A DNA stretch of 64,000 nucleotides. Source: Nitrospira sp. (GTDB lineage: Bacteria > Nitrospirota > Nitrospiria > Nitrospirales > Nitrospiraceae). The DNA lies in NCBI GenBank assembly GCA_030123605.1, contig CP126123.1, positions 1,902,001 through 1,966,000 of the forward strand. The letters are read 5' to 3'. Shown here piece by piece: positions 8,249 through 13,507 of the stretch. The position numbers were made by a program, and so were the translations under genes. Each line of letters opens with the position of its first letter. Position 1 is the first letter of the stretch. The notes under the pieces were generated by a model. It was given only the letters and a program-made list of their open reading frames with translations. It was not told where the DNA came from and ran no database searches.

Positions 8249-8495
8249 TCAATGCCGACAGGCGCAAAGGCAGGTGAATGCCGTAAGACGGTTGTCTCAC
8301 GGTTACCTTGCCCGAAGCTGCTGATCCTCAACTTCCCCGCCTCCGCAGAACCGTCCGTCAGGTCCAACCCGAAGAAAAAAACCGGCTTCATCTCTTGCTG
8401 AGCAGGAACCTGCCCGCTGGCAAGACGAACCGTCCATTGCATCGGCCTTGTAAGATCGTACCCTCTTGCCCTACTCTGCCCCAAGGAGGCCTGGG

Positions 8496-9140
8496 ATGGA
8501 TCAACACGATCGTTTGATAAAAGCCAAGGAAAATTGGGCGAAGGCTCGACGCGGGGGAGAAGAACGCGAGGTCTTCTACGAGGGAGACGACCGGCTCCCT
8601 CCCGGACAACACCTCGTGGAGACCTGGCCGGTGCTGGACCTCGGTCAGAAACCGGATATTCCACTCTCGGAATGGACACTGACCATCGGTGGCGCTGTCA
8701 CGACGCCTGTGATCTGGACTTGGGCGGACTTCCTCGCGCAACCTCAGTTCAAGGACGTGTCCGACTTCCACTGTGTGACGTCCTGGAGCCGCTATGACAA
8801 CCAATGGGAAGGAGTCAGTTTCAAACAGGTGATGGCTGTTGTCCGCCCGCTTCCCCTGGCTAAATTCGTCCTGTTTAAATCCTACGACGAGTACACCACC
8901 AACCTGCCCTTTGATGCCTGCGACGACAACGATGTGCTTCTCACCTACAAATGGAACGGTCGTCCCCTCACCAAGGAGCACGGCGGTCCGGTACGCACGA
9001 TCATCCCTAAACGCTATGCGTGGAAGGGTGCCAAGTGGATCAAGGAAATCACCTTCTCAGACCACGACGAAAAGGGTTTTTGGGAAGTACGTGGCTACTC
9101 CAACAGTGCCCTCCCCTGGCAAAACGACCGCTACGGGTGA
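8496..9140 (+). CDS. Sulfite-oxidase-type molybdopterin oxidoreductase (cytoplasmic)
   Basis: A 214-residue protein of the oxidoreductase molybdopterin-binding family (PF00174, sulfite oxidase/MsrP-like fold). The single Cys expected to coordinate Mo is in DFHCVTSWSRYDNQWEGV near residue 92. Other family marks are PLSEWTLTIGG near residue 56, HGGPVRTIIPKRYAWKGAKW near residue 170 and the end motif FWEVRGYSN near residue 195. It lacks a signal peptide and the C-terminal dimerisation domain of true sulfite oxidases, so it is a stand-alone cytoplasmic domain of unknown substrate. The ATG at 8496 is set by an AAGGAGG site. The epimerase gene follows closely downstream. Confidence 0.9.
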   Translation: MDQHDRLIKAKENWAKARRGGEEREVFYEGDDRLPPGQHLVETWPVLDLGQKPDIPLSEWTLTIGGAVTTPVIWTWADFLAQPQFKDVSDFHCVTSWSRYDNQWEGVSFKQVMAVVRPLPLAKFVLFKSYDEYTTNLPFDACDDNDVLLTYKWNGRPLTKEHGGPVRTIIPKRYAWKGAKWIKEITFSDHDEKGFWEVRGYSNSALPWQNDRYG

Positions 9141-9167: not shown

Positions 9168-9206
9168 GTGAATCTCAACACCATACACACCATCGAGATC
9201 TGACCG
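9168..9206 (+). pseudogene. Detached N-terminus of the epimerase, ended by an in-frame TGA
   Basis: Reading from GTG 9168 gives eleven residues (NLNTIHTIEI after the start), which look exactly like the first beta strand of an enolase-superfamily capping domain. Then TGA at 9201-9203 and PVDVPITDPF follow without any change of frame. The stop therefore falls inside what should be one protein. No clear Shine-Dalgarno precedes GTG 9168. A point mutation, a sequencing error or readthrough could each explain it. Confidence 0.55.
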
Positions 9207-10268
9207 GTGGATGTCCCGATCACCGATCCCTTCGTCGTCGCCACCGGAGCACGGACGACGGCACAGAACCTGTTCATGCGCGTCACGTTGTGCAGTGGGA
9301 TTCAGGGATATGGGGAAGCCGCACCCTTTCCTGAAGTCGGGGGTGAAGACCGCACCTCTTGCCTCGCCGCAGCCACAACATTGGCTCACAGCCTGATCGG
9401 GCAATCCGTCGTCGACTACCAGGTCCTCGCGGACCTCCTCCAGGAGCAGGCGCCGCTCCATCCAGCCGCCCGCTGCGGGCTGGAAACGGCGGTGCTCGAC
9501 GCTCATTGTCGGACGCTTCGCATCCCTCTCTGGCGGTTATGGGGCTCGGCGGATGTCAGACAGCGGGAAACCGACATCACCATTCCCATCTGTAGTGTGG
9601 AAAAAACATTGGAACTCTCGCGCGGCTGGTATGTCCAGGGATTTCGTCTTTTCAAAATGAAAGTCGGACAGGATGTCGAGCAGGATATTCGACGGCTGGA
9701 AGCCGTACATGACGCCCTTCCGGACATCGGCTTCATCGGTGACGGCAATCAGGGTTTCTCCCGCGAAGACTGCATCGTCTTCGCCACCGGCGTGAAAAAA
9801 TTCGGCGGTCGGCTGGTGCTCCTCGAACAACCGGTCGTCCGCGACGACCTTGAAGGCCTTCAGGCCATTCGCCACCTGACCGGTATTCCCGTGGCGGCGG
9901 ATGCGTCGGTCCGGTCGTTGGACGATGCACGCCTCGTCGCCCACCTACGAGCCGCTGACTACATCAACATCAAGATCATGAAGACCGGCGTAGTGGAAGC
10001 GATCCGAGTCGCCGCATTCGCCCGCTCTGCCGGCCTCCGCCTGATGGTCGGGGGTATGGTGGAAACACGCATTGCGATGGGCTGTTCTTTCAGTCTGGTG
10101 TTGGGACTGGGCGGATTCGACATACTGGACCTGGATACGCCGTTGCTCCTTTCGACCGATCCGGTTGTGGGTGGCTATCGCTACGGAGGTCCCCTGCTCC
10201 ACCCTTGGCAGGAAGCCGGACTCGCTATGCGGGTGCCCTCTCCAGCCGTCCGCGTCACGATCCAATAA
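9207..10268 (+). CDS. Dipeptide-epimerase-like enolase superfamily enzyme (N-terminus truncated)
   Basis: A 353-residue member of the mandelate racemase/muconate lactonizing group, closest in look to L-Ala-D/L-Glu (dipeptide) epimerases. The catalytic lysine motif KMKVG is near residue 151. Mg2+ ligands are in GDGNQG near residue 178, LLEQP near residue 205 and AADAS near residue 230; the opposite lysine is in NIKIMKTG near residue 256. GGMVET near residue 282 belongs to the substrate end of the barrel. The only start available after the in-frame stop at 9201 is GTG 9207, which removes the first strand of the capping domain. A likely role is recycling of murein peptides. All active-site residues are present. 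Confidence 0.85.
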   Translation: MDVPITDPFVVATGARTTAQNLFMRVTLCSGIQGYGEAAPFPEVGGEDRTSCLAAATTLAHSLIGQSVVDYQVLADLLQEQAPLHPAARCGLETAVLDAHCRTLRIPLWRLWGSADVRQRETDITIPICSVEKTLELSRGWYVQGFRLFKMKVGQDVEQDIRRLEAVHDALPDIGFIGDGNQGFSREDCIVFATGVKKFGGRLVLLEQPVVRDDLEGLQAIRHLTGIPVAADASVRSLDDARLVAHLRAADYINIKIMKTGVVEAIRVAAFARSAGLRLMVGGMVETRIAMGCSFSLVLGLGGFDILDLDTPLLLSTDPVVGGYRYGGPLLHPWQEAGLAMRVPSPAVRVTIQ

Positions 10269-11786: not shown

Positions 11787-11828
11787 CCCGCGCCATCACA
11801 AGGTACCACGTTTTCCAGGAGGTTGAGG

Positions 11829-12728
11829 ATGGCAAAGTCGGACTATCGCATCGGGATCGTGGGGGTGGGACGGATGGGGGCCAACATGGCTCGCAGGCTG
11901 CTCGACCGTCACTATCCGATTGTGGCGGTATACGATACCGACGCACAAAGGGCGGAAGCGCTGGCCAAGGAACTGAACTGTGAGGCCCAGCCGACAGCGG
12001 CAGCCCTCGCCATACAGGCCAACACCATTTTCACCGCAGTTTCCGACGATAGGGCCATGCGCCGCATCTATGCGATCGGTGAGCCGGACAGTCTGTTGTC
12101 CCATGGCTCGGACCGACTGTTCATCAATTGCGCCACCCTTTCTCCATCCATTCATTCGGAAGTCCAAACCCTGGTGGAGCAACAGGGCGGCCGGAGCCTC
12201 GAAGCCTGCATGGCCGGCAGCATCACCCAAGCGCGCGAAGGGACCCTGTGTTTGATGTGCGGCGGCCGTCCCGATGTGTTCGAACGCGCGAAACCGCTCC
12301 TGCAGGACCTGAGCATTCAGCTGCGCTATATCGGGCCCGCGGGCGAGGCTGCCAAGGTAAAGGCCCTGATCAACATGGTGATGAACGCCAACACTGCGGC
12401 GCTGGCGGAAGGCCTCGGCTTAGGAGCGGCCCTCGGGCTGGACCTCACGATGCTCCGCGAAGTCTTCTCTCAAACCGGCGCAGCCTCCCGAGTACTCGAG
12501 ACGGACGGCGAAGACATGCAGCAACGCGCCCATGATTGTTACTTCTCCGCCGCCCACGCGGCCAAAGACTCCGGAATCGCCCTAGACCTGGCTCATCAGG
12601 TCGGCCTTGATCTTCCCCTCGCGAAGGCGACCTACGATCAGTATCGACGGCTGATCGATCTCGGCAAGGGGGAACTGGACAAGTCTGCAGTTGCCGAACT
12701 GACCTTCAAGGACCGGCAGAGTCGATAA
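11829..12728 (+). CDS. Beta-hydroxyacid dehydrogenase (3-hydroxyisobutyrate dehydrogenase family)
   Basis: A 299-residue NAD(P)-dependent dehydrogenase. The N-terminal Rossmann motif GIVGVGRMGANMARRL is at about residues 8-23. The substrate-binding segment is EACMAGSITQAREGTL near residue 122 (in place of the usual DAPVSGG form), and the catalytic lysine lies in AAKVKALINMVMNAN near residue 175. An all-helical C-terminal domain follows. The family covers 3-hydroxyisobutyrate, tartronate semialdehyde and succinic semialdehyde (GLYR) enzymes; the altered substrate loop makes the exact substrate unclear. ATG 11829 has GGAGG six bases upstream and is preferred over TTG 11823. An IS5-family element is inserted about ten bases after its stop. 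Confidence 0.85.
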   Translation: MAKSDYRIGIVGVGRMGANMARRLLDRHYPIVAVYDTDAQRAEALAKELNCEAQPTAAALAIQANTIFTAVSDDRAMRRIYAIGEPDSLLSHGSDRLFINCATLSPSIHSEVQTLVEQQGGRSLEACMAGSITQAREGTLCLMCGGRPDVFERAKPLLQDLSIQLRYIGPAGEAAKVKALINMVMNANTAALAEGLGLGAALGLDLTMLREVFSQTGAASRVLETDGEDMQQRAHDCYFSAAHAAKDSGIALDLAHQVGLDLPLAKATYDQYRRLIDLGKGELDKSAVAELTFKDRQSR

Positions 12729-12752: not shown

Positions 12753-13139
12753 TCATTTCAACCAGAGCATGGAAGCGGCAAGATAGATGAGACTGGCGAA
12801 GTTGCGAGCGCGCTTGGCGGAGCGGGTCGCGACGGCGCGGTAGTGCTTGAGCTTGTTGAAGCAGCATTCGATACGGTAGCGTTCGGCGTACATGGCGAAG
12901 TCGGTGTCGCGAGGGTTCTTGAGGCAGGAGCGTGGCGGGATGACGGCCTGTGCCCCCGAACGTCCAACGGCCTCGACGATCTTTGGGCTGTCGTAGCCCT
13001 TGTCGGCAATGACGTGTTGCGCGGGAAATCCCGCCAGTAACGGCTCGGCCTGCGTATAATCCGAGGCCTGCCCCGGCGTCAAGATGAAGCGGAGCGGATT
13101 GCCAAGACCATCAACAGCGGTGTGGATTGTGGTGGTCAA
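12753..13139 (-). CDS. IS5-family transposase, ORFB (C-terminal part, made by -1 frameshift)
   Basis: A 128-residue open frame from TTG 13139, extending upstream in frame through EALGRSKGGL to overlap ORFA. It carries the second catalytic Asp in VIADKGYDS near residue 43 and the catalytic Glu in YRIECCFNKLKHYRAVATR near residue 90, then the ASLIYLAA end typical of IS5 proteins. The conserved GRSKGGLTT block lies before the TTG, so the natural product is an ORFA-ORFB fusion of about 250 residues. Confidence 0.88.
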   Translation of the reverse strand: MTTTIHTAVDGLGNPLRFILTPGQASDYTQAEPLLAGFPAQHVIADKGYDSPKIVEAVGRSGAQAVIPPRSCLKNPRDTDFAMYAERYRIECCFNKLKHYRAVATRSAKRARNFASLIYLAASMLWLK

Positions 13140-13507
13140 CCCGCCCTTCGAACGACCAAGGGCCTCCGTCTCTTGAGTCCCCCTTTTGCGCCAGCGGAAT
13201 GCTGGTGAGCACGGACGCTGGTGGAGTCGATCATCACGTACGCAACGTCCGGATCACCGGACAGCTGGCGAAACATCCGCTCCCACACGCCCGCCCTCGA
13301 CCACCGGTTATACCGCTGGAATACGCTGTTCCATACCCCGAACTGCTTCGGCAACTCACGCCCGGGCGCACCGGTCCGTGCGATCCATAGCACGGCATCC
13401 ACACATGTTCGGTTATCCGTCGCCGTCCGCCCCGGATCGCTCGCCTTGCCAGGCAACAAGTCCTTGATGGGCCTCCATTGATCATCCCGTAACTCGCGTC
13501 TCGCCAT
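13136..13507 (-). CDS. IS5-family transposase, ORFA (N-terminal part)
   Basis: A 123-residue reading frame holding the N-terminal DUF4096-type domain (DDQWRPIKDLLPGK near residue 7; CVDAVLWIARTGAPGRELP near residue 35) and the first catalytic Asp in MIDSTSVRAH near residue 91. After GAKGG the frame runs into about 15 residues that do not resemble transposase and stops. Normal family sequence continues in the -1 frame, so ORFA is the unshifted product of a frameshifted transposase. An A4G5 run in the coding strand at 13179-13187 is the likely slip site. Confidence 0.9.
   Translation of the reverse strand: MARRELRDDQWRPIKDLLPGKASDPGRTATDNRTCVDAVLWIARTGAPGRELPKQFGVWNSVFQRYNRWSRAGVWERMFRQLSGDPDVAYVMIDSTSVRAHQHSAGAKGGLKRRRPLVVRRAG

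Follow-up and report, generated by a model that had tools for sequence, protein, structure and literature searches.

A dipeptide epimerase gene of Nitrospira probably inactivated by a recent nonsense mutation

What has become of a gene whose frame meets a stop at its twelfth codon and is otherwise open to its end? Such a gene lies in the window analysed here, a stretch of 64,000 nucleotides (1902001-1966000 of contig C1) from the complete chromosome of a Nitrospira (G000, a single-contig genome of 4.32 Mb), whose near relatives are Nitrospira genomes including Candidatus N. defluvii (L036) and N. moscoviensis (L074). Read from GTG 9168, the frame gives VNLNTIHTIEI, meets TGA in frame at 9201-9203 and goes on unshifted with PVDVPITDPF to the stop at 10266-10268, exactly as the initial annotation had claimed. 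Three readings had been offered there, a restart at GTG 9207, read-through of the stop, and a recent mutation or sequencing error; a recent nonsense mutation is the one that our analysis favoured, whereas coded read-through found no support and the restart codon turned out not to be conserved. The features on which the argument turns are the following.

9168-10268, + strand: enolase-superfamily gene for a dipeptide epimerase (L-Ala-D/L-Glu type), its frame broken at codon 12; assigned from Pfam MR_MLE_N/MR_MLE_C, PDB relatives and orthologues.
9168-9170, + strand: likely ancestral start GTG; GTG in 22 of 26 genus orthologues, with the following residues conserved.
9201-9203, + strand: early stop TGA in place of codon 12, which is TGG (Trp) wherever an intact relative spans the site.
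9207-9209, + strand: possible restart GTG, not kept as a start codon in the genus by codon alignment of relatives.
9903-9905, + strand: second lesion, with Ala for Glu246 (ADAS for ADES) beside the third metal ligand Asp245, by orthologue alignment.

The codon aligned to TGA 9201 is TGG in every intact orthologue that covers the site, and TGA was found only in the source genome, which supports a recent mutation. Because TGG is present in 24 of 24 genus outgroups and also in the 94% identical sister genome (G001), the change is polarised to the source lineage; judged by the aligned codons, a single G-to-A transition at 9203 is what made the stop, and a stop where every intact orthologue has a sense codon is the mark of a nonsense pseudogene. 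The two sides of the stop had been said to join as a normal N-terminus, and the enolase-superfamily frame does continue across it, but the relatives always have Trp at this place, so that one residue became the stop. The codons 5' of the TGA are kept across the genus, roughly as (I)Q(R/T)(I/V)EI-W-P, and the frame upstream is therefore no chance reading of non-coding DNA.

The assignment of the gene rests on both of its domains. Even the product of a restart matched PF02746 (MR_MLE_N, 44 bits, cut-off 22) and PF13378 (MR_MLE_C, 116 bits, cut-off 29.4) in Pfam, so that the MR_MLE_N capping domain and the MR_MLE_C barrel of the muconate-lactonizing-enzyme (MLE) subgroup of the enolase superfamily are both present. 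The top NCBIfam model was NF041118, the L-Ala-D/L-Glu epimerase equivalog, yet the score of 236.8 bits is under its cut-off of 500, which sets the Nitrospira gene apart from that equivalog. Orthologues are about 60-94% identical across the Nitrospiraceae, and the PDB structures nearest to an intact one (L005) were 3s5s, 3ik4, 3u9i and the L-Ala-D/L-Glu epimerase 1jpm. The epimerases of the MLE subgroup (B. subtilis 1jpm/1tkk, T. maritima 2zad and the related 3s5s/3ik4/3u9i) have the same MR_MLE_N and MR_MLE_C domains, the same active-site order of KxK, D, E, D and K, and the DxD motif; unlike them, the Nitrospira gene has its strand 1 cut by a stop and Ala in place of Glu after the third metal ligand. 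Counted from GTG 9168, the KxK motif, the metal ligands D/E/D and the second catalytic Lys are all there (K163, K165, D192, E220, D245, K269), and the DxD residues D321 and D323, which we take to contact the amino group of the substrate as in the B. subtilis enzyme, are conserved. A protein search of the source genome for a compensating paralogue returned one match only, and no such paralogue.

It had also been claimed that all catalytic residues are intact, which is true of this canonical set but not of the Glu that directly follows the third metal ligand. Of 88 orthologue loci, among which some genomes count twice because two collections contain them, 87 have E at that position, and the source gene alone has A; the equivalent residue is Glu even in distant Ureibacillus/Lysinibacillus homologues of 28-29% identity. 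A Glu that is invariant in the clade is thus absent. At alignment columns where 95% or more of 36 other orthologues agree, the sister always conforms, and the source gene departs three times: a stop for Trp12, Ala for Glu246 and Val for Ile281. Literature searches turned up no account of pseudogenes in Nitrospira and none of what the residue equivalent to Glu246 does. When polarised against 24 outgroups, the source branch carries 14 non-synonymous changes, the stop included, and 12 synonymous ones, and the sister branch 7 and 7. The pairwise dN/dS is 0.24 against a regional median of 0.14, a value equalled or exceeded in 15% of 182 frames. These substitution patterns fit a relaxed constraint and do not prove it, dN/dS being only moderately raised.

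Nonsense codons in the same gene were found in three further members of the genus. These stops, and the two intact neighbours that served as controls, are listed below.

L008:1921 (L047:3421), genome G003: Trp154 to TGA in the orthologue of a Nitrospira MAG.
L021:1921 (L043:3421), genome G017: Trp154 to TAG in the orthologue of a Nitrospira MAG.
L012:2242 (L038:3670), genome G009: Gln261 to TAA in the orthologue of a Nitrospira MAG.
8466-9140, + strand of the window: upstream neighbour, an intact open frame of 224 aa, presumably sulfite-oxidase-like.
11823-12728, + strand of the window: downstream neighbour, an intact open frame of 301 aa, presumably 3-hydroxyisobutyrate/6-phosphogluconate-dehydrogenase-like.

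Since the three stops lie at different codons or were made by different bases, they are separate events. All of them lie upstream of some of the catalytic residues of the barrel, K269, D321 and D323 in each case, and these alleles should be null. Like the stop of the source gene, all three arose by a G:C to A:T transition. In neither control gene did we find a mid-gene stop among 27 genus genomes each; the upstream one has a single TAA in G012, necessarily within the first few codons since 219 of the 224 codons are open. Stops were therefore counted in 4 of 26 epimerase genes and in 0 of 54 control genes (Fisher p = 0.009), or in 3 of 25 and 0 of 52 when the source genome is left out (p = 0.03), a comparison in which there are only two control genes and most of the genomes are MAGs. 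Two of 29 genus members (G014 and G016) yielded no epimerase gene; both are also without the two control genes, so the whole region, and not this gene alone, may have been lost or have diverged there.

Taken together, it is quite likely that the stop is genuine and recent and that it breaks a dipeptide epimerase gene which Nitrospira can do without and loses repeatedly, most likely an ordinary kind of gene decay. The G-to-A transition at 9203 would have turned the Trp12 codon into TGA after the split from the nearest relative compared, and the full-length enzyme would no longer be made in quantity. Traces of product may still arise, whether through weak reinitiation at GTG 9207 by ribosomes halted at 9201 or through occasional misreading of the UGA by tRNA-Trp. 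Because a product restarted at GTG 9207 would lack most of strand 1 and carry E246A as well, the gene has probably lost all or nearly all of its function. Counting against decay, there is no further stop or frameshift in the frame and the canonical active-site residues are intact, so that any decay can only be recent and the gene may retain some function. The stop, the ancestral Trp codon, the second lesion and the independent stops in other species are observed, whereas we infer the loss of activity and the dispensability of the gene. Like other bacterial nonsense pseudogenes, this one has a one-base stop at a conserved codon in a gene that is otherwise recognisable, a second lesion at an invariant site and patchy loss in relatives. 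It is set apart from the usual ones by the potential restart GTG one codon past the stop and by the separate nonsense codons that three sister species have in the same gene. In annotation, the gene is best marked as a probable pseudogene, and its start should not be moved downstream to GTG 9207. Several independent nonsense alleles in a genus of autotrophic nitrifiers suggest that murein dipeptide recycling is dispensable there, which makes the gene a small testable case of parallel gene loss.

An error of sequencing or consensus would mean that the true base at 9203 is G and that the gene is intact. Only a single base would have to be wrong, the remaining frame is open, and the W12 stop and E246A both come from one assembly. 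However, when G000 was compared with G001 over the 400-kb region around the window, the region used for our codon and stop comparisons between the two, about 173 neighbouring coding-like genes yielded no more than a handful of stops. Several of these sit in the first codons of over-extended frames whose start was probably mis-called, and false stops are thus no general problem of the assembly. (In-frame stops were counted on coding-like frames; counts over all frames are dominated by antisense shadow frames.) Against an error also speak the nonsense codons of this gene in three other assemblies, and a second, unrelated departure in the same gene at the invariant Glu246. The error that the initial annotation had proposed beside mutation is accordingly the less likely of the two, and we regard it as unlikely.

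The repeated loss could mean more than decay. With four independent alleles, two of them at Trp154, inactivation of the epimerase in Nitrospira might be recurrent and perhaps selected, either as parallel adaptive loss of murein-peptide recycling or as leaky-stop alleles of low expression. That Trp154 was struck twice, by different bases, is compatible with chance, about one in four by a rough hand count, because each Trp codon offers two transition routes to a stop; selection of this kind seems to us rather improbable.

Another way out for the gene would be termination followed by reinitiation at GTG 9207, three bases past the stop, to give a functional shorter enzyme. This GTG is in frame and is followed by an open remainder of 353 codons, and reinitiation so near a stop does not strictly need a ribosome-binding site. 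However, we saw by eye no clear Shine-Dalgarno site before 9207, and the codon is GTG only in the source genome, the sister, L016 and some distant relatives, being GTC, ATC, GTT or GCC in most, where it is no start codon. As an ancestral start it was ruled out, most relatives having GTC or ATC there. The case named in advance as decisive against a broken gene, relatives that begin at the equivalent of GTG 9207, was thus not encountered, since most of them could not start there, and a restart at a codon that is not conserved would be at most an accidental rescue. When the protein of the sister was modelled with AlphaFold2 (mean pLDDT 87), residues 5-18 formed strand 1 of the capping domain; the stop at residue 12 falls in the middle of this strand, and a restart at 14 would retain the end of the strand only. 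The restarted product would also bear E246A. We therefore think a functional enzyme made in this way very unlikely.

We give hardly any credence to the remaining reading, in which UGA is decoded as an amino acid (Trp through a suppressor tRNA or reassignment, or selenocysteine) to give a full-length enzyme. In its favour, the UGA replaces an ancestral Trp codon and is followed by C, and tRNA-Trp with a CCA anticodon naturally misreads UGA at a low level. The tRNA-Trp of the source has, by our own numbering, A at position 24, the base of the E. coli Hirsh suppressor. It is the only tRNA-Trp that we found.

G000:C1:1701032-1701103 (L252:80-154, - strand): tRNA-Trp, identical in G001, G003, G018 and G023.

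The effect of the Hirsh suppressor change G24A in E. coli tRNA-Trp has been described (PMC13092985). In Nitrospira, A24 may lift the basal misreading of UGA; some of the four relatives with the identical tRNA have the gene intact, and since A24 is common to the genus, it is not a rescue that evolved for this stop. The anticodon stem of this tRNA-Trp has by eye the normal 5 pairs. The 44 tRNA genes over the Rfam cut-off, as read by ARAGORN, include one tRNA-Trp (CCA) and none with a UCA anticodon. A tRNA-Sec over the cut-off was not found, the best sub-threshold matches being Ser, Leu, Arg, Thr and Gly tRNAs by ARAGORN, and all matches to SelB were under the cut-off, so the genome did not yield the pair that a selenoprotein needs. 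RF2 is present, and TGA is the commonest terminator, ending 76 of 168 coding-like genes in the source and 82 of 168 in the sister. Among 880 Trp codons aligned between G001 and G000 in 173 coding-like genes, G000 has 851 TGG, one TGA, that of the epimerase gene, and one TAG at codon 4 of its frame. Stop-to-Trp recoding of UGA (code 4, with a tRNA-Trp of 4-bp anticodon stem; PMC13092985) resembles the Nitrospira case in the UGA at an ancestral Trp codon, but in Nitrospira UGA is the commonest terminator, RF2 is present, the anticodon stem has 5 bp and the region compared holds no further in-frame Trp TGA. The marks of such reassignment, recurrent UGA at Trp codons, a UCA or altered tRNA-Trp, and loss of RF2 or rarity of UGA, were not seen. 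We thus searched for reassignment, selenocysteine and a suppressor tRNA, none of which was supported, and read-through as a coded mechanism is left unsupported by RF2, the tRNA set, tRNA-Sec/SelB and the Trp-codon counts alike.

In the family as a whole, the epimerase gene was found in 67 of 114 good genomes and not in the other 47, and the two control genes in 85 and 103. Outside the genus, one orthologue of 50% identity (G109:C4:52594-53613) has two in-frame TGA codons, and another, in a single-contig genome (G119:C1:1515972-1516553), appears truncated to residues 1-194; by their sequences, both suggest that the gene is decaying elsewhere in the family too. In the source window, about 2.5 kb downstream of the epimerase gene, two overlapping frames on the - strand (13136-13507 and 12753-13139, together 12753-13507) presumably encode an IS5-type transposase, and the stretch that holds them is not collinear with the sister G001.
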